Shown here in pieces: positions 1,552 to 62,152 of a stretch of 64,000 nucleotides of DNA; positions within the stretch are counted from its first letter, which is position 1; each line of letters opens with the position of its first letter. Under the pieces are notes generated by a model. That model searched no databases, was not told the origin of the DNA, and worked only from the letters and a program-made list of their open reading frames with translations. The translations under genes were made by a program, and so were the position numbers. The DNA comes from Nonlabens dokdonensis DSW-6 (lineage in GTDB: Bacteria; Bacteroidota; Bacteroidia; Flavobacteriales; Flavobacteriaceae): positions 1,674,001 to 1,738,000 of the forward strand of contig NC_020156.1 in NCBI RefSeq assembly GCF_000332115.1. The letters run 5' to 3'.

Positions 1552-1567
1552 CGCTTTCGCGAAAGCG
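1552..1567. repeat. CGCTTTCGCGAAAGCG palindrome, copy 1
   Basis: Exact 16-bp palindrome between two tandem lipoprotein genes. Here the symmetry extends to a perfect 26-bp palindrome (1547-1572). Confidence 0.95.
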
Positions 1568-1619
1568 AGACCTCTATGAACATTGGTACACATAATAAAA
1601 ACACAAAATTGAATCAAAA

Positions 1620-2189
1620 ATGAAACAGTTAAATAAAGTTCTTCTAGTAATTCTTTTGATAGGCTGTACTTCTTGTTTGGGAGATCAAAAAAGTAACGCT
1701 ATAGAAAATTCTGAAGATGAATACGAACAGTTACAAAAAACTCTGGCTTTACAAGAAGCAGAGGCAGAAAAAATTACTGAATGTCTTTGTAATGATTTCC
1801 CTACTGATCTTATAATGAAATATAATACAGACGCTAAACGTGTTGAAATAGAACGCGTAGAACTTGTTCCTGAAAAATTAGCGCATTGTAAAATAAAACT
1901 GTTTTATGGCGATAAGGAATATGAATATTGGGAAGGTCAAGTGAGCGCTTGGGTTCCTAAAACAGATCAACCATTTTTTCAATACAATCCAGAAAGGAAT
2001 GCATCACTGTACCATAAAGTGGATGGTATAGGAGAAAAGGCTGTTTTTATATCAAATACGTACCAACTATTAATTCTTAAAGATGGTATTATGCACAGTA
2101 TTGTGCCGCCTAATAGAGGTCGCACCACAAATACGGGAAAAGAAAATAAAGAGATTGCTTTAGAACTAGCAGCTTATTACCAATTATAA
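1620..2189 (+). CDS. lipoprotein of unknown function, 189 aa
   Basis: Lipobox at GCTSC (Cys about residue 19), again followed by LGDQK as in the gene before it. Mature region: ECLCNDFPTDLI, HCKIKLFYG, VDGIGEKAVFIS, LLILKDGIMHSIV, KEIALELAAYY. The match in layout to 872-1516 suggests a paralogue. No catalytic motif is visible. The 103-bp gap upstream holds a palindrome copy. Downstream gene begins 12 bases after the stop, so 1620-3092 may be one transcript. Confidence 0.72.
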   Translation: MKQLNKVLLVILLIGCTSCLGDQKSNAIENSEDEYEQLQKTLALQEAEAEKITECLCNDFPTDLIMKYNTDAKRVEIERVELVPEKLAHCKIKLFYGDKEYEYWEGQVSAWVPKTDQPFFQYNPERNASLYHKVDGIGEKAVFISNTYQLLILKDGIMHSIVPPNRGRTTNTGKENKEIALELAAYYQL

Positions 2190-2201
2190 AAATAACCTAT
2201 T

Positions 2202-3092
2202 ATGAAAATGATTATAAATCTTTGCGTCATATGGTTTGTTCTTTTTACCACCATATTACATGCTCAACAAAATGTTACTTACGGTAATAAAACACTTAAA
2301 CCATCTCAAGTTCTCAAAACTTCTATAGGAAATAGAGGCGAAACCTTTAGTTTCTATATTTCAGAACATGACATGAGCCCGAATGGACCTTGGGCAAAAG
2401 AGGTGAAACGTTTACAATCACTAGGAAAACAAGTTAACCCAAATGATGCTCCAAAGGGGCTTTCCCTCCATTTATCTGTTTACTTAAAAGAAGGTATTCC
2501 GTTTCCTATAAAACCAGAGGATAGTATTGTAGTCAGTTTATCTAACATAAAAAAACAACGAGCAGAGAACGACTATAATGAAATGCAAATAAGCAAAATA
2601 GACACACAAAAATCTCAAAAAGAAGGCGAGTCCTTAAAGGCCAGCAAAGCGAGCATAGAACAAGAAATGAAAGTCTTATTAAAACAAATGCAAGAAGGTA
2701 AAATTACACCAGACGAGTTTGCAAATAAATTAGAAACACTTTCTAAACCGGTATTGAATGAAATAGATAATTTAGAAATTATGAATCATCAAATCGAGGA
2801 ACAAGAGGACCAATCCTATTATGATATTGTCTTTTTTGATACAGTAGATAATATAGAGGCAAATGTATTAGAAGGCAATTTGCATATTGTAGAGTTTAAT
2901 AAAAACAGATTAGTTGCTTACATAAAAGGAAAACATATTGTAGAATGCACAGATGTGACGCGTATGAATTCGCCTTCAAAAATTTGTAAACAAGTAGATT
3001 CTCAATTGTATCCAGGTTTGCAAGTATTAAAAGAAGGGAATGTGTACTTATCCATAGATTCAAATTTTAAAGAGTTTCAGGACAATAGATGA
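2202..3092 (+). CDS. secreted coiled-coil protein of unknown function, 296 aa
   Basis: Sec signal peptide ending around ILHAQQ (about residue 22). The middle (about residues 120-205) is rich in Lys, Glu and Gln with heptad spacing and is likely a coiled coil (KIDTQKSQKEGESLK ... EMKVLLKQMQEGKI). It is flanked by beta-rich stretches. Two Cys lie near the C-terminus (HIVECTD, KICKQV). No family recognised. It sits 12 bases behind the lipoprotein gene and upstream of the TPR-CHAT gene, after a 218-bp gap. Confidence 0.7.
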   Translation: MKMIINLCVIWFVLFTTILHAQQNVTYGNKTLKPSQVLKTSIGNRGETFSFYISEHDMSPNGPWAKEVKRLQSLGKQVNPNDAPKGLSLHLSVYLKEGIPFPIKPEDSIVVSLSNIKKQRAENDYNEMQISKIDTQKSQKEGESLKASKASIEQEMKVLLKQMQEGKITPDEFANKLETLSKPVLNEIDNLEIMNHQIEEQEDQSYYDIVFFDTVDNIEANVLEGNLHIVEFNKNRLVAYIKGKHIVECTDVTRMNSPSKICKQVDSQLYPGLQVLKEGNVYLSIDSNFKEFQDNR

Positions 3093-3199
3093 TTTACTAA
3101 AATACTATAAATTCAAATTGGTATTGCCCATAAATTTATAGACACTTTGTTGGCAAGTACGATTACTATTTGCAGTATTAAAAAGTGTATGTAGGATTT

Positions 3200-3215
3200 C
3201 GCTTTCGCGAAAGCG
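3200..3215. repeat. CGCTTTCGCGAAAGCG palindrome, copy 2
   Basis: Exact copy in the 218-bp gap between a secreted protein gene and the CHAT gene, both on the plus strand. Confidence 0.95.
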
Positions 3216-3310
3216 AGAATACTTAATAAACCTTTATACATTTTCAACAATAATATTTTCTAAACTAAGTCATTTATTTTCATACATTTAAGAAATAAAT
3301 TTTAAAATTT

Positions 3311-6187: not shown

Positions 6188-6203
6188 CGCTTTCGCGAAA
6201 GCG
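6188..6203. repeat. CGCTTTCGCGAAAGCG palindrome, copy 3
   Basis: Exact copy between the convergent CHAT and thioesterase genes; flanked TTTT on the left and AAAC on the right. Confidence 0.95.
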
Positions 6204-6230
6204 AAACCAACACAAATTAGGATAAAATAA

Positions 6231-6825: not shown

Positions 6826-6841
6826 CGCTTTCGCGAAAACG
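6826..6841. repeat. variant palindrome CGCTTTCGCGAAAACG
   Basis: One base differs from the consensus (GAAAACG for GAAAGCG), breaking the outer pairing. Located between the divergent thioesterase and lipoprotein genes. Confidence 0.75.
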
Positions 6842-8591: not shown

Positions 8592-8607
8592 CGCTTTCGC
8601 GAAAGCG
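8592..8607. repeat. CGCTTTCGCGAAAGCG palindrome, copy 4
   Basis: Exact copy between convergent genes, just ahead of the terminator hairpin; flanked by TTCC and AAAC. Confidence 0.95.
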
Positions 8608-10892: not shown

Positions 10893-11936
10893 ATGAACTT
10901 TTCTCAGCAACTTATTGATTGGTACACAGTTAACAAAAGATCACTGCCTTGGCGAGATACTAAGAATCCCTATTTTATATGGCTTAGTGAGGTGATTTTA
11001 CAGCAAACTCGCGTTCAGCAAGGGTTACCTTACTATAAAAGTTTTGTTAAAAAATTCCCGTCAGTGGAGAATCTCGCTCATGCACCTCAAGATGAGGTAC
11101 TCAAATTATGGCAGGGATTAGGCTATTATTCTAGGGCTAGAAATTTACAAACTGCCGCCATGCAGATCGTCGATAATAATTCAAAATTCCCAGATAATTA
11201 CAAAGATTTACTACAATTAAAAGGTGTAGGTGAATATACAGCCGCTGCAATAGCGAGTTTCGCCTTCGGAGAATCTGTTGCTGTGGTGGATGGAAATGTG
11301 TACCGAGTTCTATCACGTATATATGGTATTGCGACACCTATAAATGTTCCAGCTGGAGTTAAAGAATTCAAGTCTCTTGCTGGCAAATTATTAGATCAAC
11401 ATGATCCTGCAACCTATAATCAGGCGATTATGGAATTCGGTGCGATACAATGTGTTCCTAAAAGTCCAGATTGTAGTGTTTGTCCATTCCAAAGTAATTG
11501 TATAGCCTATCAAGAACAAAGGGTTAAAGAGCTTCCGGTCAAATTAAAAAAAACTAAGGTTAAAAACCTTTTTCATCATTATCTAGTGATTCAAACTCCT
11601 TCTAAGAAAACTGTTTTACATCAACGCGATAACAGCAGCATCTGGGCAGGCTTGTTTGAGTTTCCTTATATAGAAGCGCAAGGTGCGTTACTACCGCAAG
11701 AAATCATTGAAGAGAAGTTTTTTAAGGAACTGGTAGGAGAATCTCGCTTTCGCGAAAGCGTATACAATCAACAACCTATTATACATAAATTGTCTCATAG
11801 AAAAGTACATGCCTATTTCTGGATTATTGAACTAGATCAAGAACTGAATGATACTCTTAGCATTGAAGATGCAAGGGCAAAACCTGTTCATGTTTTGATG
11901 GAGCGTTTTATGAAAGAATTTTGGCAAGGGAAGTAA
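10893..11936 (+). CDS. mutY: A/G-specific adenine glycosylase
   Basis: Removes adenine mispaired with 8-oxoguanine in base excision repair. HhH-GPD domain with catalytic Glu33 (SEVILQQTRV), helix-hairpin-helix LKGVGEYTAAAI and catalytic Asp133 (VVDGNV). The [4Fe-4S] cluster ligands are Cys187, Cys194, Cys197 and Cys203 with the standard 6-2-5 spacing. The C-terminal NUDIX-like domain (about 225-345) recognises 8-oxoG. Codons 285-289 inside that domain are formed by a palindrome copy and read RFRES. First gene of the mutY-ssb-gldE-gldD series, divergent from HU. Confidence 0.96.
   Translation: MNFSQQLIDWYTVNKRSLPWRDTKNPYFIWLSEVILQQTRVQQGLPYYKSFVKKFPSVENLAHAPQDEVLKLWQGLGYYSRARNLQTAAMQIVDNNSKFPDNYKDLLQLKGVGEYTAAAIASFAFGESVAVVDGNVYRVLSRIYGIATPINVPAGVKEFKSLAGKLLDQHDPATYNQAIMEFGAIQCVPKSPDCSVCPFQSNCIAYQEQRVKELPVKLKKTKVKNLFHHYLVIQTPSKKTVLHQRDNSSIWAGLFEFPYIEAQGALLPQEIIEEKFFKELVGESRFRESVYNQQPIIHKLSHRKVHAYFWIIELDQELNDTLSIEDARAKPVHVLMERFMKEFWQGK
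11745..11760. repeat. CGCTTTCGCGAAAGCG palindrome inside mutY, copy 5
   Basis: Exact copy, in frame, encoding RFRES (residues 285-289) in the C-terminal domain. Confidence 0.95.
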
Positions 11937-16486: not shown

Positions 16487-16502
16487 CGCTTTCGCGAAAG
16501 CG
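16487..16502. repeat. CGCTTTCGCGAAAGCG palindrome, copy 6
   Basis: Exact copy between divergent transcripts; the symmetry continues to 22 bp (16484-16505). Confidence 0.95.
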
Positions 16503-19123: not shown

Positions 19124-21967
19124 ATGAAACAATTTCTTTCTATTCTATTTTTAAGTTCTTTTTTGATTTCTTTTGCCCAAAATCCTAAAGCAACTCCTAC
19201 GACAAAAGTTCAAAGTGGTCTTTTAAAAATGGAGCAAATGGAGCAATCATCTCCGTTTAAAAATCTAGAATTTAAAAACATAGGGCCTACAGTGATGTCT
19301 GGTCGCGTCGTAGATGTAGACGTAAACCCTAATGATCCTACCGAGATGCTTGTTGCCTACGCCAGCGGTGGATTGTGGCATTCTAATAATAACGGTACCA
19401 GTTTTACTCCTGTTATGGATAACGCAAGCACCATTAATCTAGGAGATATTGCGGTAGATTGGGATGCTAAAACTATCTGGGCAGGAACTGGAGAAAATAA
19501 TTCTAGCCGCAGCAGCTATGCTGGAATAGGTTTGCTTAAATCAACAGATTGGGGTAAAACATGGAGTGAACCTATGCTTACTGACTCTCATCATATCGGT
19601 CGCATTTTAATAGACCCTAAAAACACAGATCATGTCGTGGTAGCCGTAACGGGACCTTTATACTCACAGAGCGATTCTAGAGGAATTTACGCTACAAAAG
19701 ATGGCGGAAACACTTGGAATAAAACACTTTTTGCGACTAACATGGCTGGATTTATAGACCTAGCTGTTGCACCAGAAGATTTTAATGTAATGTATGCGGC
19801 AAGTTGGGAAAAAGATCGCAAAGCTTGGAATTTTGATGGAGATGGAGAAGCAAGTGCTATTTATAAAAGTACGGACGCTGGACAAACCTGGACTAAAATA
19901 ACCACAGAATCCAGTGGCTTCCCTATTGGGACTGGAGTAGGCCGTATAGGACTTGCTGTTTATGATGCCAACACCGTGTATGCCATTCATGATTCGCAAT
20001 TTAGGAGACCTAAAAAAGAAGACGATTCATCAAAAGATGAAAATAAAAACCTTTCTAAGGATGATTTTAAGCAGATGTCCAAAGAAGCATTTTTAGCATT
20101 AGAAGATAAAAAACTCAATACTTTTCTTAAACAAAACGGTTTTCAAGAAAAATACAGAGCGCAAAATGTAAAAAATATGGTTCGCGCTGGTGACGCAACT
20201 CCTATGGATGTTGCTAAGTACCTTGAGAATGCCAATACGCAGCTTTTTGATACACCAGTAAAAGGTGCCGAACTCTATCGCTCCAACGACGGTGGAAAGA
20301 CTTGGAAAAAAACTCATGAAGATCAAATCGACAACGTTTTCTACAGCTACGGTTATTACTTTGCCCAAGTACGAGTAGATCCTAGCGACGTGAATCATGT
20401 TTATGTAATGGGTGTCCCGATAATCAAATCTGATGACGGCGGAAAAACATGGAAAAGCATTTCAAAAGAAAATGTTCATGCAGATCATCATGCATTATGG
20501 ATCAACCCAAACAAAAGAGGCCATATTATTAACGGTAACGATGGCGGACTGAATATCTCCTATGATGATGGAGAGACTTGGATTAAAAACAACTCGGCTA
20601 GTGTAGGACAATTTTATGCGATTAATTATGATATGGAAAAACCATATAACGTTTATGGCGGCTTGCAAGATAACGGCGTTTGGGTAGGCGCTCATAATGC
20701 TAGAGAAGATAGATCATGGCATCAACAAGGTCAGTATCCATGGGAATCTATTATGGGTGGCGATGGAATGCAAATACAAATCGATTCTAGAAATAGCGAT
20801 ATCGTTTATACCGGTTATCAATTTGGTAATTATTATAGAATTAATCGCGACACAGAAGATGGGACTTATATCCAGCCAAAACACGAATTAGGAGAATCTC
20901 CTTACCGCTTTAATTGGCAAACTCCTATATTATTGAGTTCGCACAATCAAGACATCCTGTATTTAGGAGGCAATAAATTACACCGATCGATGAATCAAGG
21001 AGACGACTGGACTGCCATTTCTCCAGACCTGACTCAAGGCGGTAAAGAAGGAAATGTAACTTATGGCACGCTTACTAGCATTAGTGAATCTCCATTTCAA
21101 TTTGGTTTAATTTACACAGGATCTGACGATGGATTAGTTCAAATTACAAAAGACGGTGGCGCAAGCTGGAATAGGATTAAAGGCAACTGGCCAGTGAACC
21201 TTTGGGTAAGCCGTGTGGTAGCTTCACAACACGATCAAGCGACTGTTTATGTAACCTTAAATGGTTACCGTTTTGACGATTTTACACCTTACGTTTTTAA
21301 AAGTACCGACTATGGTAAGACTTGGACTAACATCGGCAATTCTATTCCTACTTCACCAGTGAATGTGATTATTGAACATCCTAAGAAAGAAAATATCTTG
21401 TTTTTGGGAACAGATAATGCCAGCTACATCAGTACTGATTCAGGAAGTACTTGGAATCTCCTAAACAATGGCATGCCACCTGTAGCTGTTCATGACATGA
21501 AAATACAGCCAGAGGCAAATGATTTACTGATAGGAACACATGGTCGCTCCATTTACACGGCAAATCTGGATGCATTAGAATTATTAGGCGATGATGATAA
21601 TTTCGCTTTCGCGAAAGTCGACAAAATGAGAGCTTCTTCTAGATACGGCTCACAAGGATTTATGTGGAGTGAAGGACCAGAGCCTAAAATTGAGTTGACT
21701 TTCTATTCAAAAATGGCTGGTAAAGTAAAAATGGAAGTCCTTATTGAAGATGGGAAAACCATTTATGAAAATGGAACAAATGCAAGTAAAGGTTTGAACT
21801 TTTATACTTATGATGGTAGTGTAGGTGAATATGCTTTGAAAAGATTTGATGAAGAAAACCGACCTAAAAAAGCAGATAACGGTAAGTACTACCTAACTAA
21901 AGGAACGTATACTATTAAATTGACTGGTAATTCTGGTACTGCAACACAAGAGTTGATTGTTGAGTAA
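19124..21967 (+). CDS. sortilin/VPS10-like BNR repeat protein, 947 aa
   Basis: Sec signal peptide ending at ISFAQN. Most of the chain is beta-propeller with many BNR/Asp-box motifs (KSTDWGKTWS, ATKDGGNTWNK, KSTDAGQTWTK, RSNDGGKTWKK, KSDDGGKTWKS, SYDDGETWIK, ITKDGGASWNR, KSTDYGKTWTN, STDSGSTWNL), as in VPS10/sortilin-type and exo-glucanase-like propellers. A charged insert lies at about 300-365. The C-terminal ~100 residues are beta-sandwich-like. The catalytic residues of glycosidases cannot be assigned, and related proteins are annotated only as glycosyl hydrolase-like. Probably periplasmic or surface-exposed. Codons near residue 827 contain a variant palindrome. Confidence 0.85.
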   Translation: MKQFLSILFLSSFLISFAQNPKATPTTKVQSGLLKMEQMEQSSPFKNLEFKNIGPTVMSGRVVDVDVNPNDPTEMLVAYASGGLWHSNNNGTSFTPVMDNASTINLGDIAVDWDAKTIWAGTGENNSSRSSYAGIGLLKSTDWGKTWSEPMLTDSHHIGRILIDPKNTDHVVVAVTGPLYSQSDSRGIYATKDGGNTWNKTLFATNMAGFIDLAVAPEDFNVMYAASWEKDRKAWNFDGDGEASAIYKSTDAGQTWTKITTESSGFPIGTGVGRIGLAVYDANTVYAIHDSQFRRPKKEDDSSKDENKNLSKDDFKQMSKEAFLALEDKKLNTFLKQNGFQEKYRAQNVKNMVRAGDATPMDVAKYLENANTQLFDTPVKGAELYRSNDGGKTWKKTHEDQIDNVFYSYGYYFAQVRVDPSDVNHVYVMGVPIIKSDDGGKTWKSISKENVHADHHALWINPNKRGHIINGNDGGLNISYDDGETWIKNNSASVGQFYAINYDMEKPYNVYGGLQDNGVWVGAHNAREDRSWHQQGQYPWESIMGGDGMQIQIDSRNSDIVYTGYQFGNYYRINRDTEDGTYIQPKHELGESPYRFNWQTPILLSSHNQDILYLGGNKLHRSMNQGDDWTAISPDLTQGGKEGNVTYGTLTSISESPFQFGLIYTGSDDGLVQITKDGGASWNRIKGNWPVNLWVSRVVASQHDQATVYVTLNGYRFDDFTPYVFKSTDYGKTWTNIGNSIPTSPVNVIIEHPKKENILFLGTDNASYISTDSGSTWNLLNNGMPPVAVHDMKIQPEANDLLIGTHGRSIYTANLDALELLGDDDNFAFAKVDKMRASSRYGSQGFMWSEGPEPKIELTFYSKMAGKVKMEVLIEDGKTIYENGTNASKGLNFYTYDGSVGEYALKRFDEENRPKKADNGKYYLTKGTYTIKLTGNSGTATQELIVE
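21604..21617. repeat. partial palindrome CGCTTTCGCGAAAG inside BNR gene
   Basis: First 14 bases of the consensus, then TCG. Encodes FAFAK in frame. Confidence 0.7.
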
Positions 21968-22576: not shown

Positions 22577-23395
22577 ATGAAACATTACTTTTTAGTTCTC
22601 GTACTATTAATACTCAGTTGTGGAGAAAAACAATCACAACAAGAAGAATTATCCTATATGAAAACAACCATCCAACTAGAAAATGAGCAAGTTTCTATAG
22701 ATCTTTCAAAACCTCATGATATCAGTATTGCGGTTCAAAACAATGCTGGCGTGGGCGCTTGGTATATTGATCAGCCGCAAATAAAGCACGTAGAAGTAGA
22801 TGGTTATGTTGGGAATGTAAAATTGGGCGGCTCGACTAATTTTAATGATGTGAATTTTAATCCGCACAGTCATGGAACGCATACAGAATGTATAGGTCAT
22901 ATAACAGAAGAATTTCATAGTGTCAACGATGCGCTGGACGGTACGTTTTTTAAAGCACAATTGATGAGTGTGACACCACAAGAGATGGACGGTGATTTAG
23001 TCATTAATGAATCCGTAACTGCCGGTTTAAAAGATGGTGTAACCGCCGTGATACTGCGTACGATGCCCAATCCTGAGAGTAAGATGACTACAAATTATTC
23101 TAATACAAATCCGCCGTATGTAGATGCTGGCTTGATGTTACGCTTTCGCGAAAGCGGAATCAAACATTTTCTTATAGACTTGCCTAGTGTGGATAAAGAG
23201 AAAGATAATGGTGCACTTCTAGCGCATAAGTCTTTTTGGAATTTTGATGGAGAGCAACGGCTTGATGCAACCATTACCGAATTTATTTATGTGCCTGAAG
23301 CTGTAAAAGATGGTTTGTATATGCTGGACCTTCAAGTCGCACCTATTGAAAATGATGCGGCGCCATCGCGGCCTATTCTCTACCAGATATTGTAA
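22577..23395 (+). CDS. cyclase/kynurenine formamidase family hydrolase, lipoprotein, 272 aa
   Basis: Metal-dependent hydrolase fold. N-terminal lipobox LILSC (Cys about residue 15). The metal-binding segment is HSHGTHTECIGH (His97, His99, His102), close to the HxGTHxDxPxH signature but with Glu-Cys-Ile-Gly-His in place of Asp-x-Pro-x-His. SIAVQN near the start corresponds to the usual DLS/H strand. Family members open amide or ester rings (N-formylkynurenine, isatin); the substrate here is open and the lipid anchor suggests a periplasmic role. A palindrome copy encodes RFRES (residues 189-193). Confidence 0.85.
   Translation: MKHYFLVLVLLILSCGEKQSQQEELSYMKTTIQLENEQVSIDLSKPHDISIAVQNNAGVGAWYIDQPQIKHVEVDGYVGNVKLGGSTNFNDVNFNPHSHGTHTECIGHITEEFHSVNDALDGTFFKAQLMSVTPQEMDGDLVINESVTAGLKDGVTAVILRTMPNPESKMTTNYSNTNPPYVDAGLMLRFRESGIKHFLIDLPSVDKEKDNGALLAHKSFWNFDGEQRLDATITEFIYVPEAVKDGLYMLDLQVAPIENDAAPSRPILYQIL
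23141..23156. repeat. CGCTTTCGCGAAAGCG palindrome inside cyclase gene, copy 7
   Basis: Exact, in frame, read as RFRES. Confidence 0.95.
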
Positions 23396-25046: not shown

Positions 25047-26825
25047 TTGCAATCACAACTTCACGATTTTTATAACGAGCGCATTGCTCAATTTACAGAT
25101 TCTAGCAATAGACTTCAAAATCAATTGCGACTCTCCAGCACCTTCCGTTTTCTGGTTTTCATAGGTGGTTGTGTGGTGGTTTACTTTCTATTTGATTACT
25201 GGCAATATGCTGTTTTAGCAGCATTTTTAATTTTTGGCTTCTTCCTTTTCCTAGTTTCAAGACATGAAAATTTAAAACGCAAACGTGATTTTCAAATAGG
25301 CTTGCGTGATATTAATGGTAAAGAATTACAGATTCTAGATCGAGATTTTCATGGCTTTCCTACTGGGAAAGAATTTCTAGAAGATGATCATGAATACAGT
25401 CGTGATATTGATCTTTTTGGTGTAGGGTCTATGTTTCAATATTTGAATAGAAGTGTTACAAAAGATGGTGTGATCTCGCTTGCGCGAAAACTAAACTGCA
25501 ACAATATTACCGAAATTGAAAAGAAGCAGAAAGCTGTAAAAGAACTGGCAAAAAAGGTAGATTTTAGACAAGAATTTTGGGCAACAGCAACTTTATTAGA
25601 TAATGAAAAAGATCCTAATACGATGCTCAAATGGGTAAAGAGCTATCATTCTTTTGTGCCTAAAGTATTTTCTTGGTTGTGCTGGTTATTGTTTGCATTG
25701 AGTATAGCAACTTTTACATTGTACTTCTATGATCTAGTGCCCGGTTATATACCAGCAGCGGTGTTTTTTATAGGTTTAGGAATTACTGGAAAATATATTA
25801 AGCAAATCACTGCTTTTTCTGGTAACATAAGTAGCTTGGAACTTTTCTTCAGTCAGTACAGTCAATTAATTCTTGCAATAGAGAAGGAAACTTTTGAGAG
25901 CGATTTACTTGTTCAATTAAAATCACAAATCACCACAAATGGAGATCCTGCGTCACAGCGGTTTCATGATCTTGCAGGAGCTATAGGACGACTAGATCAA
26001 AGAAATAACATGCTTTTTGGTGTGCTTGCAAATGGTCTAGGGCTTTGGGACCTTAAGCAAGTACATACGATTGAAAACTGGCTGCAAGAAAATGCGTCAC
26101 ATATAGAAAATTGGTTACAAGCAGTTGCTGAAGTTGATGCTCTAAGCTCGTTAGGTAATTATGCCTATAATCATCCAGATTATACCTATCCTGAAATTAA
26201 AAAAGGTGAATTTCAATTGAAAGCTATTGACGCGCACCATCCATTATTAGATCCTCAAAAATCTATCGGTAACGATATCTCTATAAAATCTGGAGAGTTT
26301 TTTATTATTACTGGAGCAAACATGGCTGGTAAAAGTACCTTTCTTAGAACTGTATCGATGAAGATTGTACTTGCTAACACAGGTTTGCCAGTAAGCGCAC
26401 AGAAAGTAATCTATAGCCCAATTAAGTTAATTACGAGCATGAGAACGAGTGACTCACTTACCGACGATGAATCCTACTTCTTTAGTGAATTGAAACGTCT
26501 TAAATACATTGTAGATAAAATAGAAACCGATCGGTATTTTATTGTACTTGATGAGATTCTTAAAGGTACTAATAGTCAAGACAAAGCAAATGGCTCTCGT
26601 AAATTAATAGAAAAACTGTCCAGAAAGCACGCCACAGGAATTATCGCCACGCACGATCTAAGTCTTACCGAGGTAGCAAATGAATACGATACGATTTCTA
26701 ACTATTTCTTTGATGCTGATATTACAAATGACGAGCTTACTTTTGATTATAAATTCAAAGATGGCATTGCCACTAACATGAATGCGAGTTTCTTATTAAG
26801 GAAAATGGGAATTGTCGATCAGTAG
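25047..26825 (+). CDS. membrane-associated MutS-like ATPase, 592 aa
   Basis: C-terminal MutS core and ATPase domain (about residues 330-592): Walker A GANMAGKST at 423-431 and the downstream DDESYFFSELKRLKYIV, LDEILKGTNSQDKANGSRKLI and ATHDLSLTEVA blocks. The mismatch-recognition domain I is absent. Two hydrophobic hairpins (~33-72, ~203-245) suggest membrane association, unlike MutS1 or MutS2. No Smr domain. Start codon must be TTG at 25047: a stop lies 5 codons upstream and the next in-frame Met is far downstream. Family is common in Bacteroidota; function unknown. Confidence 0.88.
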   Translation: MQSQLHDFYNERIAQFTDSSNRLQNQLRLSSTFRFLVFIGGCVVVYFLFDYWQYAVLAAFLIFGFFLFLVSRHENLKRKRDFQIGLRDINGKELQILDRDFHGFPTGKEFLEDDHEYSRDIDLFGVGSMFQYLNRSVTKDGVISLARKLNCNNITEIEKKQKAVKELAKKVDFRQEFWATATLLDNEKDPNTMLKWVKSYHSFVPKVFSWLCWLLFALSIATFTLYFYDLVPGYIPAAVFFIGLGITGKYIKQITAFSGNISSLELFFSQYSQLILAIEKETFESDLLVQLKSQITTNGDPASQRFHDLAGAIGRLDQRNNMLFGVLANGLGLWDLKQVHTIENWLQENASHIENWLQAVAEVDALSSLGNYAYNHPDYTYPEIKKGEFQLKAIDAHHPLLDPQKSIGNDISIKSGEFFIITGANMAGKSTFLRTVSMKIVLANTGLPVSAQKVIYSPIKLITSMRTSDSLTDDESYFFSELKRLKYIVDKIETDRYFIVLDEILKGTNSQDKANGSRKLIEKLSRKHATGIIATHDLSLTEVANEYDTISNYFFDADITNDELTFDYKFKDGIATNMNASFLLRKMGIVDQ

Positions 26826-26890: not shown

Positions 26891-26906
26891 CGCTTTCGCG
26901 AAAGCG
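26891..26906. repeat. CGCTTTCGCGAAAGCG palindrome, copy 8
   Basis: Exact copy between the convergent MutS-like and type B sorting genes. Confidence 0.95.
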
Positions 26907-30892: not shown

Positions 30893-30908
30893 CGCTTTCG
30901 CGAAAGCG
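30893..30908. repeat. CGCTTTCGCGAAAGCG palindrome, copy 9
   Basis: Exact copy between two minus-strand genes, 28 bases upstream of the methyltransferase start. Confidence 0.95.
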
Positions 30909-33564: not shown

Positions 33565-34248
33565 TTATCCTGTCCTAAATTCTTTTAGATAAAAAGGTTC
33601 AAAATAAGCGACATCAACAGTGTCGTTTTTTTTGTATTTATTCATAGCAAGATCACACATTGTTAGAGCTGTAGGATTTGTGCTCGAGTAAGTGTGTTTT
33701 TCTTCTAAAATAAGTTCCTTGAATTTTTCTACTCCTGTTCCTATGAAGGTGATGTTTCCGCTTTCGCGAAAGCGGGCAAAACTATTCTCATCTAGCACAA
33801 CTGCGGCTGGTGGTTCTATTTGCTCCTTTCTATCAAAAATTGCCGCATATACTTCCATTCTACGGGCATCTAACATAGGAATTGAGATGTTTTCTTTGAT
33901 TGTATTTTGTCTGCTTAAAGAAGCTAACGTACTAACAGCAATCATCGGTATGTCTAGCGCGTAGCATAAACCTTTTACTGCTGCTACACCTATTCTTAAA
34001 CCGGTATAAGAACCTGGTCCTTCACTCACCGCAACGGCATCTAAATCTTTTTCTGAAAAGTTATTGCGAGTTAGAATCTCTTTTACGTAAATATGTAAGC
34101 GCTCTCCATGACTATAACCATCACTATTATCCTCTAATAGATCAAGGCAGTTCTCTATTTCCAAATCGTTTTTAAAATGACCTTTCTCACTAGCAAGCGC
34201 TACGGAGCAATTTGTAGAAGTCGTCTCTACGCATAAAATTAGCGACAT
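33565..34248 (-). CDS. tsaB: tRNA threonylcarbamoyladenosine biosynthesis protein TsaB
   Basis: Partner of TsaD and TsaE in t6A37 tRNA modification. ASKHA fold: ILCVETTSTNCSVAL, then GPGSYTGLRIGVAAVKGLCYAL and IPMLDARRMEVYAAIF; these are the family marks, without TsaD's metal-binding His. Length 227 is usual. The start overlaps the upstream adaptor stop by one base (TAATG type), so it is co-translated with the efflux operon. A palindrome copy encodes RFRES near residues 159-163. Confidence 0.95.
   Translation of the reverse strand: MSLILCVETTSTNCSVALASEKGHFKNDLEIENCLDLLEDNSDGYSHGERLHIYVKEILTRNNFSEKDLDAVAVSEGPGSYTGLRIGVAAVKGLCYALDIPMIAVSTLASLSRQNTIKENISIPMLDARRMEVYAAIFDRKEQIEPPAAVVLDENSFARFRESGNITFIGTGVEKFKELILEEKHTYSSTNPTALTMCDLAMNKYKKNDTVDVAYFEPFYLKEFRTG
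33759..33774. repeat. CGCTTTCGCGAAAGCG palindrome inside tsaB, copy 10
   Basis: Exact, in frame on the minus strand, read as RFRES. Confidence 0.95.
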
Positions 34249-35547: not shown

Positions 35548-36999
35548 TTAAAGTTTTAAGTCTTTTGGATCGATACCAAAAAATAATTCAAGAACCTTAA
35601 GTCTAAATATGTAATCGTATTTAGCTTGATTAAGGGAAATCTTGGTATTGTCATATCTCAATTTACTCTGACTAAAATCAAATGCGTTTGTTAACCCCAC
35701 ATTGTATCTTTCTCTAGCATATTCATAAGCTAATTCTTGAGACTCAAGTGATGTTTTTGCGGCTTCATAAGATTTATGTGCTCCTTGAACATCTACATAG
35801 GCTTGATAAACAGTGCTTTCAAGATCGAGCTGTGCTTGTTTGAGCTGCAGCTCACTTCTTTCTAGATTTATCTCATTACGTTGCACGTTACTACGAGCGC
35901 TGAAACCATTAAAAATAGGAATGTTAAGTTGGAATCCATAGCCTATACCATCGTTAGTATATAATTGCTCTATGAAAGGACTTGCACCTACGATAAAACT
36001 TTCTGTATTCGGCACTTCGCTAACGACAGCTTGTCCTGTATTTTCAACGGTTCCTATTTGTCTTGTAATTGTAGGGTTATTGGGATCAGCAATACGCTGT
36101 CCAAATGAAGTAGCATCAGTATATCTAGTATCGTAACCGAAAAACGCACTTAAAGTAGGGTAGTAAGCTCCTTTTGCAATTTGTAAATCTTTTCTAGCAA
36201 GCTCCACGTTTTGCTCTGCAATTTTAACTTCTGATCTATTTTCTTCAGCAGAGTTGATGATACTCGTAACAGGTTGGTCTGAAATACCAGAGTCTATAAT
36301 TTCAAAATCATCTTCGGCAATATCAAAAGTGGCGTAATCATCAATTAAGAGTAGTTGTGCAAGGCTTACCTTACTAATAGTTACAGCATTTTGGGCTATA
36401 ATAATTTGTTGCTGTTCACCAGCATCAGTTGCTTTAATTTCTAGTAAATCGCCTTTAGGCAATTGACCTGCATCCACAAGAGTTTGTGTTTGTTCTACTT
36501 GTTCTTTGGTGACAAGGTTTTGAGCGATTAAAGTCTCTAAGTTTGCTTTATTATTAAGAATTTGAAGGTAATTGTTTGCTACTGCTAGTGCAATATCATC
36601 CTTCATTTTATCTAATCTATACTGGTTAGCGATTTGAGAGATTTCAGCACGTTGTAATTGTCTAAAATTTCTTAGTCCATTGAAAACAGTATACCCAACG
36701 TTAATTCTTCCTGTTGCAGACAGGAAAGTTGTTGTTTGTGCATTGTTAGTTACTGGATTAAAACTAAGACCTGTATTTTCAGATAAACTTGTACTTGCCG
36801 ATAAGCTAGGTAATAAATTTCCTATGGCACTTAACCTGTCTGCATCTACTGCTTTGAGGTCTAGCTCGCTTTGTTGTATGGAAATGTTGTTATCTAGTGC
36901 GTATTGTACACATTCTTGTAATGTCCATTGTTTTTGTGTTTGCGCTTTCGCGAAAGCGAAACTAAATAGAGCGATACTGCAAATTATTAACTTCTTCAT
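35548..36999 (-). CDS. TolC family outer-membrane efflux protein, 483 aa
   Basis: Two outer-membrane-efflux repeats (about residues 30-220 and 245-450) with the family marks WTLQECVQYALDNNISIQQ and ERSELQLKQAQLDLESTVYQAYVDV. I take the ATG at 36999 as start: it gives a good signal peptide (MKKLIICSIALFSFAFAKAQ), while the longer frame from 37071 overlaps the upstream gene. The cleavage site AKA and the preceding FAF are encoded by a palindrome copy. Sits between the two adaptor genes. Confidence 0.94.
   Translation of the reverse strand: MKKLIICSIALFSFAFAKAQTQKQWTLQECVQYALDNNISIQQSELDLKAVDADRLSAIGNLLPSLSASTSLSENTGLSFNPVTNNAQTTTFLSATGRINVGYTVFNGLRNFRQLQRAEISQIANQYRLDKMKDDIALAVANNYLQILNNKANLETLIAQNLVTKEQVEQTQTLVDAGQLPKGDLLEIKATDAGEQQQIIIAQNAVTISKVSLAQLLLIDDYATFDIAEDDFEIIDSGISDQPVTSIINSAEENRSEVKIAEQNVELARKDLQIAKGAYYPTLSAFFGYDTRYTDATSFGQRIADPNNPTITRQIGTVENTGQAVVSEVPNTESFIVGASPFIEQLYTNDGIGYGFQLNIPIFNGFSARSNVQRNEINLERSELQLKQAQLDLESTVYQAYVDVQGAHKSYEAAKTSLESQELAYEYARERYNVGLTNAFDFSQSKLRYDNTKISLNQAKYDYIFRLKVLELFFGIDPKDLKL
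36943..36958. repeat. CGCTTTCGCGAAAGCG palindrome in TolC signal peptide, copy 11
   Basis: Exact; read on the minus strand as (F)AFAKA, forming the signal peptidase site of the TolC-like protein. Confidence 0.95.
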
Positions 37000-37051
37000 A
37001 ATGTGATAATGTCTATATGTAGATTTAAAATGTGATTTGTTACAAAAAAAA

Positions 37052-41598: not shown

Positions 41599-41826
41599 TT
41601 AACTTTCTACCTCGTCTGATTTCTTTTGAGTATTTCTATAAATCATGTAAATAATCGCCCCTACTAGAATGTAAGGAAATGCCATGAGGTAAGTAATACC
41701 ATTATTGAGTCCTTGAGCAGCTGCGGTATCTCCAGAGCTTTCAATTACGGCGCGGCACATGGCGCATTGCGCTTTCGCGAAAGCGGGAACACTAAAAACA
41801 ATTAATACTATAAGGAGCTTTTTCAT
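41599..41826 (-). CDS. small membrane protein with CAMC motif, 75 aa
   Basis: Signal peptide ending at FAKAQ (site AKA), then CAMCRAVIESSGD and a hydrophobic segment (ITYLMAFPYILVGAIIYMIYRN). Two Cys spaced CxxC right after cleavage may bind metal or act in redox, fitting its place after the SCO/DUF420 genes of the oxidase cluster. Conserved small protein in Flavobacteriia oxidase clusters, as I recall; function unknown. The signal-peptide site is encoded by a palindrome copy. 9 bases after the DUF420 gene. Confidence 0.75.
   Translation of the reverse strand: MKKLLIVLIVFSVPAFAKAQCAMCRAVIESSGDTAAAQGLNNGITYLMAFPYILVGAIIYMIYRNTQKKSDEVES
41770..41785. repeat. CGCTTTCGCGAAAGCG palindrome in signal peptide, copy 12
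   Basis: Exact; on the minus strand gives AFAKA, ahead of QCAMC, the signal peptidase site of the 75-residue protein. Confidence 0.95.
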
Positions 41827-46802: not shown

Positions 46803-46825
46803 AAAAGCTGTTTTTTAAAGGTTTG

Positions 46826-46856
46826 CAAAGATACCTCACAACTCCTTTGCCGCAAA
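46826..46856 (-). promoter_or_regulatory. ctaB/cox operon promoter
   Basis: TTTG (46853-46856) - 19 bases - TATCTTTG (46826-46833) on the minus strand, the Bacteroidota consensus with the same spacing as the rplU promoter. The -7 box ends 24 bases before the ATG. Confidence 0.8.
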
Positions 46857-46909
46857 GGTTTTGTATAGCTTTCAGACTATTTTATGATTATGAAGAATTG
46901 TGTCTGTTC

Positions 46910-46925
46910 CGCTTTCGCGAAAGCG
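46910..46925. repeat. CGCTTTCGCGAAAGCG palindrome, copy 13
   Basis: Exact copy between leuS end and the cox promoter. Confidence 0.95.
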
Positions 46926-46933
46926 AGACCACG

Positions 46934-46968
46934 AAAAAAAAGAGAACCTCAAAAGGCTCTCTTTTTAT
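46934..46968 (-). terminator. leuS terminator
   Basis: Minus strand AAAGAGAGCC pairs with GGTTCTCTTT (one G-U), followed by TTTTTTT. Confidence 0.8.
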
Positions 46969-46986
46969 TATAATTCTACAGTTTAT

Positions 46987-49900
46987 TTATCCCACTACAA
47001 AATTCACAATCTTACCAGGTACAATAATCGTCTTGCGGATTTGCTTTCCTTCTAGCTGTTGCTGTACTTTCTCGTTATCCAAAACCATTTTCTCCAACTC
47101 GTTTTTTGAAATGTCTACCGGTAAATCCAGTGTAAATTTCATTTTACCGTTAAACGAAATAGGATAGGTCTTGCTGCTTTCTACCAAATGCTTTTCATCA
47201 AATACTGGGAAAGGCGCGTCACTTATTGACTCGTTATGACCCAATAGCGACCATAACTCCTCAGCGATGTGTGGTGCGTATGGTGATACTAGAACAGCAA
47301 GTGGTTCTAACACCGCACGACTGTTACATTTTTGAGTTGTCAACTCATTTACAGCAATCATGAAACTACTTACACTGGTATTAAATGAGAAGTTCTCGAT
47401 ATCATCTTGCACTTTTTTAATCGTCTTGTGCAAGGTTTTCATACTGTCAGGTGATGCTTTCTCATCGCTAACCGCAAATCCATTCTCATCATGATACAGT
47501 TTCCACAGCTTTTTCATAAAACCATAAACTCCAGTAATTCCAGCAGTATTCCATGGTTTTGCTTGCTCTAGCGGACCTAAAAACATCTCGTACAATCGCA
47601 AAGTATCTGCTCCATACTGATCACAAATATCGTCTGGATTTACGACGTTGTACTTGGACTTAGACATTTTTTCTGGTTCATGAGATGTGTCAAAATCATT
47701 ATCTAGGTTTCGAATTTCCAAATACGTTTTAGTCAAATCTTTAACGTCTTGAACCCTATCTTCAATTATACAAGCGTTTTTAACTTTATCAATAGGAATA
47801 TGAACTCTTCTTGTGGAAAAGGTTAGATTATAACCTGGTAATCCTTTTGGAATTTGACTTCTAATTTGTTCATCAAAATGTCTAAATTTTCTCTTGTCAA
47901 GATCGCAAAGCGTGTTAAAATTCCGTTCAAAAATTACCTTATCAGCCCATATTGAATCTTTAAATAAATTATAATGTTTGATGTAAAATTCTCCCATAGA
48001 ATGAGAAACTAATGCTTCAAACTCATAAGAACCTTCTCTTGTATTAGGGGAATATATTATATCAATAGACATAGAATAAGCAAAAGCACTCTCCCCCAAA
48101 ATCATACCTTGATTAATCATCTTTTGGAAGGGCTCTTTTACAGTGACTTTACCTAAATCGTGTAATAACTTCACCCAAAACCTACTGTACAACAAGTGAC
48201 CTGTCGCGTGCTCGCTTCCACCTATATATAGATCTACATTATTCCAGTATTCTTGTGCTGCTGCCGAAAACATCTCGTCTTCATTATTAGCATCCATATA
48301 CCTAAACATATACCAAGAACTACCTGCCCAACCTGGCATGGTGTTTAATTCTAATGGGAATACACAATCACGTTCGTCCTCATTAGAAACTACTTTATTT
48401 TCTTGCGTACACCAGCTCCAAGTTGTGGCACGACCTAATGGTGGTGCACCATCTTCTGTAGGTAAATATTCATCTACCTCTGGCAACTCGATAGGCAAGT
48501 GCTTGCGGTCTATCATTTGTGGCAATCCGTCCTTATAATATACCGGGAAAGGCTCACCCCAATAACGCTGTCTAGAAAATACTGCATCACGCAATCGGTA
48601 ATTGGTTTTTCCTTTTCCTGCGCCTACTGCTTCTAATTTCTCAATCGCTGCTGCCATCGCACCAGTTTGATAGCTCATTCCGTTTAAGAAATCACTGTTA
48701 CAAAGTGGTGTTTTATCTTTTGCGACATAAGCTTCTGCGCTGATATCTACACCTTCAAAAATATTCTTGATTTCAGGCATTCCTTCCTGATCAGCAAAAA
48801 AGTTGGCAAAGGCATGATCGCGCTCATCACCGCATGGTACTGCCATCACCGCTCCAGTTCCATAACCTGCCAATACATAATCACCTATCCAAACCGGCAC
48901 AGGCTCACCACTTAATGGATGCGTAGCATAAGCACCAGTAAAGACACCAGAAATGGTCTTCACATCTGCCATGCGTTCTCTTTCTGATCGGGCAGCTGTT
49001 GCTTTTTTGTAGGCTTCTACGGCTTCTTTTTGCTCAGGAGTTGTTATTTGATCCACCAGTTCATGTTCTGGTGCCAGTGTCATGAAGGTGACTCCGTAGA
49101 TGGTATCTGGTCGTGTGGTAAAAACTGGAATTCTGAATTCTGAATTCTGAATTCTGAATTCGACAAGTGCACCTACCGATTTCCCGATCCAGTTGCGTTG
49201 TATTTCTTTGATCGATTCTGACCAATCTAAACCATCTAAATCGTTCAATAAACGCTCTGCAAATGCACTGATTCTCATCATCCACTGGCGCATTTTCTTG
49301 CGCACTACAGGATGTCCACCACGTTCTGAAACACCGTTTACGATCTCATCATTTGCCAATACGGTTCCTAGTGCTGGACACCAGTTCACTTCTGTATCTG
49401 CTAGAAAAGTTAAGCGATAATCTAATAAAATTTCTTGTTGCTCTTTATCTGTAAACGCATTCCATTCTGCGGCTGTAAATTGTCTTAAATCTTCGTCTGT
49501 AGCAGCGTTGATGGTGGATGTTCCGCTTTCGCGAAAGCGAGATTCCAACAAACTTATAGGTTGTGCTTTGTCGGCATCTTTATCATACCAACTTTCAAAA
49601 AGCATGATAAAAATCTCTTGCGTGTATTTATAATAATCTGGTGAGGAAGTGCGCACCTCGCGATCCCAATCAAAACTAAAACCGATGCGGTCCATTTGTT
49701 CACGGTAACGAGCGATATTCTCTTTAGTAGTGATCGCAGGATGCTGTCCAGTCTGAATAGCATATTGCTCTGCAGGCAACCCAAAACTATCGTAACCCAT
49801 GGGATGCAAGACGTTGTGACCGGTGTGGCGCTTGTAACGAGATACAATATCACTAGCGATATAACCTAACGGATGCCCAACGTGTAGCCCAGCACCACTA

Positions 49901-50028
49901 GGATATGGGAACATATCGAGTGCATAAAACTTAGGCTTATCAGAATTATTTACCGCTTTAAAGGTTTTGTTTTCTGCCCAATGTTTTTGCCATTTAGCTT
50001 CTATTTCTTTGTGATCGTAGAGTAACAT
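46987..50028 (-). CDS. leuS: leucine-tRNA ligase with two unusual segments, 1013 aa
   Basis: Charges tRNA-Leu. Class I motifs HVGH at residues 49-52 and KMSKS at 787-791; the CP1 editing domain is present (TTRPDTIYG; GTGAVMAVPCGDERDHAFA, with the editing Asp). The segment between GMILG (641-645) and KMSKS is ~140 residues, compared with ~50 in E. coli; it is diverged (SMSIDIIYSPNTREGS ... STRRVHIPIDKVKNACII). Within the editing domain, VEFRIQNSEFRIPV is encoded by a 7-bp tandem repeat, and RFRES near residues 164-168 by a palindrome copy. A -7 box is 23 bases upstream. Confidence 0.95.
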   Translation of the reverse strand: MLLYDHKEIEAKWQKHWAENKTFKAVNNSDKPKFYALDMFPYPSGAGLHVGHPLGYIASDIVSRYKRHTGHNVLHPMGYDSFGLPAEQYAIQTGQHPAITTKENIARYREQMDRIGFSFDWDREVRTSSPDYYKYTQEIFIMLFESWYDKDADKAQPISLLESRFRESGTSTINAATDEDLRQFTAAEWNAFTDKEQQEILLDYRLTFLADTEVNWCPALGTVLANDEIVNGVSERGGHPVVRKKMRQWMMRISAFAERLLNDLDGLDWSESIKEIQRNWIGKSVGALVEFRIQNSEFRIPVFTTRPDTIYGVTFMTLAPEHELVDQITTPEQKEAVEAYKKATAARSERERMADVKTISGVFTGAYATHPLSGEPVPVWIGDYVLAGYGTGAVMAVPCGDERDHAFANFFADQEGMPEIKNIFEGVDISAEAYVAKDKTPLCNSDFLNGMSYQTGAMAAAIEKLEAVGAGKGKTNYRLRDAVFSRQRYWGEPFPVYYKDGLPQMIDRKHLPIELPEVDEYLPTEDGAPPLGRATTWSWCTQENKVVSNEDERDCVFPLELNTMPGWAGSSWYMFRYMDANNEDEMFSAAAQEYWNNVDLYIGGSEHATGHLLYSRFWVKLLHDLGKVTVKEPFQKMINQGMILGESAFAYSMSIDIIYSPNTREGSYEFEALVSHSMGEFYIKHYNLFKDSIWADKVIFERNFNTLCDLDKRKFRHFDEQIRSQIPKGLPGYNLTFSTRRVHIPIDKVKNACIIEDRVQDVKDLTKTYLEIRNLDNDFDTSHEPEKMSKSKYNVVNPDDICDQYGADTLRLYEMFLGPLEQAKPWNTAGITGVYGFMKKLWKLYHDENGFAVSDEKASPDSMKTLHKTIKKVQDDIENFSFNTSVSSFMIAVNELTTQKCNSRAVLEPLAVLVSPYAPHIAEELWSLLGHNESISDAPFPVFDEKHLVESSKTYPISFNGKMKFTLDLPVDISKNELEKMVLDNEKVQQQLEGKQIRKTIIVPGKIVNFVVG
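49128..49161. repeat. tandem repeat (GAATTCT) x 4.9 inside leuS
   Basis: Four perfect heptamers plus GAATTC, 34 bp. Encodes EFRIQNSEFRI in the LeuRS editing domain. Since 7 is not a multiple of 3, gain or loss of one unit would break the gene. Confidence 0.9.
49524..49539. repeat. CGCTTTCGCGAAAGCG palindrome inside leuS, copy 14
   Basis: Exact, in frame on the minus strand, read as RFRES. Confidence 0.95.
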
Positions 50029-53351: not shown

Positions 53352-53367
53352 CGCTTTCGCGAAAGCG
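53352..53367. repeat. CGCTTTCGCGAAAGCG palindrome, copy 15
   Basis: Exact copy, 25 bases from the convergent terminator. Confidence 0.95.
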
Positions 53368-57829: not shown

Positions 57830-57851
57830 TATATTTAACTTATTATAATCC

Positions 57852-57867
57852 CGCTTTCGCGAAAGCG
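57852..57867. repeat. CGCTTTCGCGAAAGCG palindrome, copy 16
   Basis: Exact copy between the DUF4199 stop and its terminator. Confidence 0.95.
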
Positions 57868-57880
57868 AAATTGATATTAG

Positions 57881-57914
57881 AAACCTCAAAGAACTTCAAT
57901 TTCTTTGAGGTTTT
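57881..57914 (+). terminator. terminator after DUF4199 gene
   Basis: Stem AAACCTCAAAGAA / TTCTTTGAGGTTT with T-rich tail. Confidence 0.85.
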
Positions 57915-58000
57915 ATTATTCTACGACTTCATGAAGGTAAATACATTTAAAGCTCAGTAAAATAATGACCAATAAATTTCTTTTATAATTTGTTGATAAC

Positions 58001-58031
58001 TTTGCTAGTTAAGGGAATAGAGGTATATTTG
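58001..58031 (+). promoter_or_regulatory. rplU-rpmA promoter
   Basis: TTTG (58001-58004) - 19 bases - TATATTTG (58024-58031), perfect Bacteroidota consensus; -7 ends 32 bases before the ATG. Confidence 0.85.
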
Positions 58032-58063
58032 CAGCCCGAAATTAATCACATTAATCAACAATT

Positions 58064-58579: not shown

Positions 58580-58600
58580 TAACCTTAAAAACAGAACAAG

Positions 58601-58864
58601 ATGGCTCATAAAAAAGGAGTAGGTAGTTCGAAAAACGGAAGAGAATCAGAATCGAAACGCTTAGGTGTTAAGATCTTTGGTGGACAAGCTGCAATAGCTG
58701 GTAACATCTTAATCCGTCAGCGTGGTATGACTCACCATCCAGGTGAAAATGTATATGCTGGTAAGGACTTTACATTACATGCAAAAGTAGACGGACTAGT
58801 GAAGTTTACTAAAAAGAGAAATAATAGATCTTACGTATCTATCGTTCCTGTAGCTGAGGCTTAA
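58601..58864 (+). CDS. rpmA: 50S ribosomal protein L27
   Basis: [61 protein letters not shown] in short blocks; complete at 87 residues. The N-terminus begins directly at the mature MAHKK form, without the Firmicutes-type cleaved leader. 21 bases after rplU; ends in a strong hairpin. Confidence 0.97.
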
Positions 58865-58886
58865 GAACTATTTCTTTAAAACATAT

Positions 58887-58925
58887 AAATCCCAAATCGA
58901 TTTCTATCGGTTTGGGATTTTTGTT
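58887..58925 (+). terminator. rpmA terminator
   Basis: AAATCCCAAATCGA pairs with TCGGTTTGGGATTT (one G-U), followed by TTG. Confidence 0.85.
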
Positions 58926-59008
58926 TACCATAAATTAAGTGTTTCTATTTCAATTAGAAATAGTTCTAATCCATTTAAGAGGCGATGCTTTTAAAGATTA
59001 GTATAGCA

Positions 59009-60610: not shown

Positions 60611-60756
60611 CTGTTGATTTAACGGTTGCAATTTAAGATGATTGTTTCAAATTGATATATTAATTGGATTAGTTTATAAAAAACCAATTGGAAAATGGTG
60701 TATTAATCATTGGAAGTGAATTATCAATATTGCTACACTATAATAAAGGCAAAAAG

Positions 60757-60784
60757 AATCCCTGCAAAGTGTTTTGCAAGGATT
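60757..60784 (-). terminator. clpX terminator
   Basis: Minus strand AATCCTTGCAAA pairs with TTTGCAGGGATT (one mismatch), followed by CTTTTTG. Confidence 0.7.
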
Positions 60785-60812
60785 GATATAATGGTTTATT
60801 CTCTGATGTCAA

Positions 60813-62048
60813 TTAACTCACCGCTTTAAGCTTTTGAATAGCGCTCTTATTTAATTTAGAAGCGGCATACTCTGCAGTAACGACCAGTTCTTTGTCATTT
60901 CCACCAGGCATGTCAAACATCGCATCAGTTAAAATGGCTTCACATAACGAGCGTAAACCACGAGCTCCTAGTTTGTACTCAATCGCTTTTTCTACGATAT
61001 AAGTAAGTGCCTCGTCGGTAATAGTGAACGCTATGTCGTCCATATCAAACAGTTTTTGATACTGTTTAATAATAGCATTTTTAGGCTCTGTAAGTATGGC
61101 TCTTAGAGTTCCTGCATCGAGAGGATTCATGTAAGTTAATACAGGTAAACGACCTATTATTTCAGGAATCATCCCAAAGTCTTTTACGTCTTTAGGAATA
61201 ATGTACTGAAGTAAGTTGTCTTTTTGAACGACTCCATCGTTAGACATACTGGCACTAAAACCTACTGCTTGCATGTTTAACCTTTTACGTATTACTTTTT
61301 CAATACCGTCAAAAGCTCCACCAGCAATAAACAAGATGTTCTCTGTATTTACTTCAATAAACTTTTGATCAGGATGCTTACGACCACCTTTGGGCGGCAC
61401 ATTTACAACGGTTCCTTCTAATAATTTAAGTAAACCTTGCTGTACACCTTCTCCAGACACGTCTCTTGTGATAGATGGATTATCGCTTTTACGAGCGATT
61501 TTATCTACCTCATCTATAAAAACGATTCCTGTTTGCGCTTTTTCTAGGTTATAGTCTGCGGCTTGTAGCAATCTGGTAAGAATACTTTCCACATCTTCTC
61601 CTACATAACCAGCCTCTGTAAGAACGGTAGCGTCTACTATTGCAAGCGGTACGTTTAACATTCTCGCAATGGTTTTTGCGATGAGTGTTTTTCCTGTTCC
61701 CGTTTGCCCTACCATCATGATGTTAGATTTTTGAATCTCAACATCATCATCGGTATCTTTTTGAAGCAGTCTTTTGTAGTGATTGTACACGGCAACTGAC
61801 ATTACCTTTTTTGTAAACTCTTGACCTATGATATATTCATCAAGAAAAGCCTTTATTGCTTTAGGCTTTTTAAGGTCTAATTCTTCTTTAGAAACTCCAG
61901 CTTTATCAACGTTTGTATCTTCCAGCACAATACCATGTGCTTGCTCTATACAACGATCACAAATATGTGCGTCTAGTCCTGCGATAAGCAAATTAGTCTC
62001 TGCTTTATTGCGGCCACAAAAGCTACATTCTAGTTGTTCTTTACTCAT
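60813..62048 (-). CDS. clpX: ATP-dependent Clp protease ATP-binding subunit ClpX
   Basis: AAA+ unfoldase that feeds ClpP. N-terminal zinc-binding domain with Cys8, Cys11, Cys30, Cys33; Walker A GQTGTGKT at 113-120; Walker [11 protein letters not shown]; the GYVG pore loop in AGYVGEDVE; and an IGF-like loop position reading GRKHPDQKF nearby. Length 411 is usual. Behind clpP, with a 115-bp gap containing a palindrome copy. Confidence 0.97.
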
Positions 62049-62136
62049 ATCTTTGTTTTGATGTCCAAGTGAACACCGATTAAAGTAGGTAGTATTCTTA
62101 ATTGTTAGAATTTACTACTTTTATTTGTTGTGTTTC

Positions 62137-62152
62137 CGCTTTCGCGAAAGCG
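62137..62152. repeat. CGCTTTCGCGAAAGCG palindrome, copy 17
   Basis: Exact copy between clpP and clpX, 12 bases after the clpP stop. Confidence 0.95.

Follow-up and report, generated by a model that had tools for sequence, protein, structure and literature searches.

A palindromic word iterated along the chromosomes of Nonlabens and Dokdonia, a candidate self-DNA signal

It was found that a perfect 16-bp palindrome, CGCTTTCGCGAAAGCG, is repeated 737 times in the genome of Nonlabens dokdonensis DSW-6 (a single contig of 3,914,632 bp), which amounts to 188 copies per Mb or one per 5.3 kb. The element was first seen in a 64-kb stretch of this chromosome (G000:C1:1674001-1738000, hereafter the window), where a sequence-only reading had listed 17 exact copies, all of which were confirmed. 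The word is restricted by lineage; Nonlabens, Dokdonia, and one further genus (g205) are rich in it. It behaves like iterated signature sequences such as the DNA uptake sequences (DUS) of Neisseriaceae, the uptake signal sequences (USS) of Pasteurellaceae, and the highly iterated palindromes (HIPs) of cyanobacteria, a likeness that the sequence-only reading had also proposed. From the comparison of sequences, I tentatively suggest that the word may be a genome-wide self-DNA signal of the three genera, kept by natural transformation via a distinct flavobacterial machinery.

Distribution and anatomy of the word

In a search of 39 genomes, each of the 22 other genomes of the same genus had 180-680 copies, the remaining 16 had none, and the reversed word, used as a control, was absent from all 39. 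The count in N. dokdonensis is far above that expected from base composition, and copies turn up throughout the sampled chromosome rather than being confined to a few mobile elements. In a family sample of 397 genomes, 48 had at least one copy. High counts outside Nonlabens were found only in a Dokdonia genome (G242, 630 copies) and in G226 of the genus g205 (153 copies), the other genomes having 13 copies or fewer. The 12-mer core occurs 879, 917, and 445 times in N. dokdonensis, G242, and G226, respectively, and 21 times or fewer per genome outside the three genera. A class sample of 395 genomes revealed no further rich genus, with a top count of 10 outside N. dokdonensis. Among the matches listed in a scan of genome contigs, most of the named ones are from Nonlabens or Dokdonia, and those in other organisms are isolated single copies.

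The anatomy of the word was analyzed in 1.264 Mb of the N. dokdonensis genome (the window together with 60 stretches of 20 kb each). There were 240 exact copies; one mismatch was seen in 53 words, two in 15, and three in 12, which agrees with the near-invariant core seen in the window. The reversed word gave 0, 0, 1, and 17 matches at zero, one, two, and three mismatches in 1.2 Mb (window excluded). Since 39 of the 53 single mismatches lie at position 1 or 16 and only 14 inside, the core is the 14-mer GCTTTCGCGAAAGC. The outer base pair varies by lineage: the full 16-mer makes up 5 of 13 cores in the stretches of Nonlabens G022 versus 17 of 17 in G006. Ten of the 16 letters are G or C. The site had been called symmetric, and its flank preferences are symmetric, too. 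In Nonlabens, the flanks start with purine, purine, and A (RRA), followed by A at positions 9 and 12, and G is depleted. The A at flank position 3 is present on both sides of 86 of the 111 intergenic sites, on one side of 22, and on neither side of 3. Dokdonia has a different flank dialect, T, A, and A/C (TAM).

Spacing and conservation

The copies are more evenly spaced than random, as had been supposed from the window, while the spacing of about 3.4 kb given at that time was too short; the 17 window copies are 3.8 kb apart on average. The number of copies per 20 kb is under-dispersed (variance/mean 0.60, P 0.006). Only 1 of 180 gaps is shorter than 1 kb, against 40.7 expected in a simple null model and 25.0 ± 4.3 when at most one site is allowed per gene or spacer (the lowest of 2000 simulations was 12). 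The 14-mers of ten other Nonlabens genomes gave a similar result (2 of 146 gaps, against 31.3 in a uniform null model), although the regions are largely syntenic and thus not fully independent. In 484 kb of Nonlabens G003, 2 of 93 gaps are shorter than 1 kb, against 16.5 expected. The coefficient of variation of all gaps in this sample (0.87) is no different from that of the null model (0.98 ± 0.10) because five gaps exceed 13 kb. One 20-kb stretch of N. dokdonensis (L164, 195-215 kb) has no copy and is filled mostly by three giant open reading frames (ORFs) of 1489-2120 codons.

How are the sites born and kept? The leuS gene was compared among 21 Nonlabens genomes, of which G010 was dropped as having only a fragment; two genomes of the genus were left out of the search. 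In all 20 covering Nonlabens sequences, the core lies at one codon column, with the outer base changed in three. Eight of nine leuS sequences of other genera lack the core. No sequence of either group has an indel at the site, which was born by substitution. In the Dokdonia leuS, the word occupies the same place with a shift of one base and in another reading frame. The conservation is so strong that it determines residues of LeuS.

Among 11 Nonlabens genomes, the core is kept in 444 of 508 ordered comparisons (each genome pair is counted both ways, so that these are not independent), whereas the flanking 14-mers are fully identical in only 1638 of 16295 (10%). Of the 64 alternative alleles, 36 are ungapped (13 with one or two mismatches, 1 with three to five, and 22 fully different) and 28 are gapped, some of the latter being alignment effects; none is polarized as gain or loss. 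When 120 sites of other Nonlabens were compared with N. dokdonensis, 41 of the 58 that could be anchored lay within 60 bp of a site. For Dokdonia, 32 of 120 sites could be anchored, and 8 of these lay as close, against 0.9 expected; for g205, 4 of 16 could be anchored, and 1 lay as close. This positional conservation across genomes indicates that the array is old and kept at the DNA level. In two Nonlabens genomes (G003 and G020; L295 and L334), a second palindrome, CCTGCCTGCCGGCAGGCAGG, interrupts some alternative alleles; it is absent from the 1.264 Mb of N. dokdonensis.

Gene context was assessed with simple longest-ORF calls, whose starts are placed maximally upstream. Of the 240 sampled copies, 126 lie inside ORFs (some of which may in fact be intergenic because of these calls), 111 between them, and 3 at stretch ends, corresponding to densities of 0.11 per kb inside and 0.93 per kb between ORFs, an about eightfold difference. 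In 29 of the 126 intra-ORF cases, the copy falls in the first tenth of the ORF. The three reading frames are used 81, 28, and 17 times, and the dominant frame reads AFAKA. In spacers, the density per kb is 0.98 for convergent, 0.98 for tandem, and 0.77 for divergent ORF pairs. This near equality argues against a terminator or a promoter element, and no transcriptional role is needed.

Could the word still be a transcription terminator, an RNA hairpin, or a dispersed insertion repeat such as a repetitive extragenic palindrome (REP) or a miniature inverted-repeat transposable element? The word is able to fold back, its sites in tandem spacers are closer to the upstream stop codon than to the next start codon in 47 of 65 cases (median 45 bp from the stop), and gapped alternative alleles would suit an insertion. 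Like REPs and bacterial interspersed mosaic elements, it is palindromic and enriched between genes. However, divergent spacers are nearly as dense in sites as the others, the sequence upstream is T-rich and that downstream A-rich, which is the opposite of a terminator, and no Rfam match was found in the window at gathering thresholds. The repeats differ in that the word left no insertion footprint in leuS, is exact and regularly spaced, and has about half of its copies inside ORFs; more than half of the alternative alleles are ungapped. Such an origin is therefore very improbable, and terminators and insertion repeats do not explain the word.

Candidate readers of the word

With its 16-bp dyad and a TTTC...GAAA half-site, the word presumably resembles the sites of ParB (parS) and Noc. 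It differs from them in its 737 copies and in the spacing of the half-sites. PF02195 had one match in 9 of 11 carriers searched, and the extra copies in G014 and G019 are a different 616-aa protein; no ParB paralogue is common to the 11. Near 1.526 Mb, ordinary parS-like sites are conserved at two places. Thus, ParB was rejected as the reader, being an ordinary housekeeping copy of conserved sequence with ordinary parS sites. A test for variation from origin to terminus had been proposed; the counts in the 60 stretches show no trend with the distance from the parS pair (Spearman -0.15, P 0.26).

Another dimeric or tetrameric chromosome-organising protein, limited to these genera, might bind a site every few kb and thereby fold, anchor, or segregate the chromosome, with direct selection on each site. 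This is the chief competitor of the self-DNA reading and a real possibility, albeit one that I hold with some doubt. The dyad symmetry reaching beyond the 16-mer, the regular spacing, the even distribution, the high positional conservation, and the intergenic preference all speak for it. On the other hand, no candidate protein was found, ParB being the one factor tested; the sites do not change significantly with distance from the parS region; and they would be far more exact than recognition among 3.9 Mb should need. A signal for recombination, repair, or replication read by some enzyme, as Chi is, has little probability. The genome-wide and regular occurrence of the word and its conservation at the DNA level speak for it, but known Chi-like signals are oriented and asymmetric, whereas this word is symmetric and without a trend along the chromosome.

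A DNA methyltransferase was also among the readers first proposed. In a HIP-like system, a methyltransferase with mismatch repair, or a modification system, would create and keep the word. The word shares with HIP1 and other cyanobacterial HIPs its palindromic nature, its occurrence in coding and non-coding DNA, and its end-biased deviations; the accessible part of PMC4390886 describes single-base deviations of HIP1 as concentrated at the ends. The same part gives 1000-2000 copies per Mb and a GC content of generally at least 75% (with one exception of 50%) as HIP criteria. The Nonlabens word is twice as long, rarer, less GC-rich, and strongly intergenic, and it was not assigned to the HIPs as they are characterized there, since its density and GC content do not fit. 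A shared methyltransferase of PF01555, PF00145, or PF02086 is not supported because each family is absent from genomes in which the word occurs hundreds of times, with no match to any of the three in G006 and G007. Thus, these families do not explain the word. Methyltransferases are not known to have sites as long as 14-16 bp, which also counts against a HIP-like system. I consider it improbable.

A possible self-DNA signal

Like DUS and USS, the Nonlabens element is one exact word that occurs hundreds of times, in genes as well as between them, with regular spacing and with lineage dialects, which DUS also have, and no role in transcription is needed for either. It differs from them in being palindromic, 14-16 bp in length, and present at about 188 copies per Mb. 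In addition, the type IV pilus/type II secretion ATPase (PF00437) exceeded the cut-off in only 2 of 11 carriers (G003 and G006), with a weak match in N. dokdonensis. Membership in the DUS/USS class was rejected because the word is palindromic and this ATPase is missing in most carriers.

Flavobacterial transformation may take another route. As described in the accessible part of PMC8459023, Riemerella anatipestifer is transformed with the help of ComEC, DprA, ComF, RecA, and a further four proteins that have no equivalent in the known machineries, one of the four having a DUF5689 domain. Riemerella columbina prefers its own DNA, according to the available text of PMC7965970. It was revealed that a homologue of the DUF5689 protein is present in all 11 signal-rich genomes searched, and the flavobacterial transformation route is probably available to the carriers. 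Nothing ties the signal to the DUF5689 protein. As a separate observation, a copy of the word lies at most about 50 bp after the stop codon of the DUF5689 gene in 6 of 9 Nonlabens genomes (L362, L364, L365, L371, L375, and L376).

Under the self-DNA reading, a symmetric DNA-binding receptor of the flavobacterial machinery would prefer fragments with the word. Recombination of the preferentially imported kin DNA would then spread and repair the word wherever it is tolerated, as a molecular drive. A single site in each imported fragment would suffice, and another one less than about 1 kb away would add nothing, which would lead to regular spacing. Drive by biased uptake could produce the combination of rare core mismatches, regular spacing, short-range exclusion, birth by substitution, genus dialects, and independence of transcription. 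In a bolder form, the word would be a palindromic self-DNA code of a type-IV-pilus-free transformation in Bacteroidota, with outer-base dialects and a dimeric surface receptor, and uptake specificity would have been invented independently once more; I regard this form as rather unlikely.

Several points weigh against a self-DNA signal. The DUF5689 protein is not confined to carriers: of 14 comparison genomes, in which the word occurs 0 to 13 times, 12 have it, and the tree of the protein does not set the carriers apart. Known uptake sequences are not palindromic, as stated in the accessible part of PMC1939737, where their even spacing, noted by others, is argued to be less even than compaction needs. 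Core mismatches are rarer than expected of a motif maintained by drive, and a 40-kb sample from one comparison genus showed no comparable iterated word. The scarcity of gaps under 1 kb does not reach significance in the small samples of the other two genera: Dokdonia has 2 of 25 against 5.1 expected (P 0.07) and g205 has 0 of 12 against 2.0 (P 0.10), both in the same direction as Nonlabens. The symmetry of the dyad and of its flanks also suits a dimeric chromosome-organising protein.

Copies in the window, islands, and phages

The G+C content of the window is 32-39% per 4-kb block. In 100 dinucleotide shuffles, words with up to three mismatches occurred 0.13 times on average and twice at most, so that the 16-mer was rightly called unexpected by chance. 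As had been noted, copies occur both inside and between genes; 12 lie between ORFs and 5 inside, as judged with 56 of 65 ORFs (nine that overlap longer ones were left out). The intergenic copies at 6188..6203, 8592..8607, 26891..26906, and 53352..53367 lie between convergent ORFs, those at 3200..3215, 30893..30908, and 41770..41785 between tandem ORFs, and that at 16487..16502 between divergent ORFs. Those at 1552..1567, 57852..57867, and 62137..62152 follow a stop codon by 35, 22, and 11 bp, respectively. The copy at 46910..46925 is 61 bp past the leuS stop codon and intergenic unless a small ORF (46823-47167, one of the nine left out), which would cover it, is real. The internal copies lie at 11745..11760 in ORF 10893-11936 (HhH-GPD/NUDIX_4, MutY-like), 23141..23156 in ORF 22577-23395 (putative cyclase), 33759..33774 in ORF 33565-34248 (TsaD-family domain), 36943..36958 in ORF 35548-37071 (outer membrane efflux protein), and 49524..49539 in leuS (46987-50028, minus strand), the last being the conserved site described above. 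The two near copies already reported, at 6826..6841 and 21604..21619, have one and two mismatches. A weaker one at 25477..25492, absent from the earlier list, has three and is possibly due to chance.

Several of the few copies in poor genera cluster at recurring distances, and twelve 20-kb stretches (L221-L232) were taken from other Flavobacteriaceae. In L221, the one annotated, all five scanned proteins belong to copper/silver-type resistance families. Ten of the other 11 stretches align to parts of L221 at 67-89% identity, while L223 does not. L223 apart, these are related islands, probably moved horizontally, of several genera. The core is common to 90 of 143 ordered site comparisons, and to 64 of 116 where the identity is below 85%; several other sites are visibly decayed. 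The islands may have formed in carrier hosts, with their copies decaying elsewhere. The word is absent from phages P12024S and P12024L (L326 and L327), which were isolated on a Nonlabens host. In both phages, GGCC (0 copies), CCGG, and CGCG are strongly avoided, which is a mark of evasion of restriction, and the absence of the word is uninformative because of the avoidance of CGCG. In 120 kb of Dokdonia (L233-L235 and L302-L304), CATG is reduced to 0.12 of expectation.

Conclusions

No description of the element was found among the listings from searches of open-access full text. Thus, this iterated word, which is unusually long and exact and follows a spacing rule, is apparently undescribed. 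As an uptake signal, it would provide flavobacterial transformation with an element of specificity and with a direct assay. As an architectural site, it would mark a chromosome-organising protein that has hundreds of targets at regular distances.

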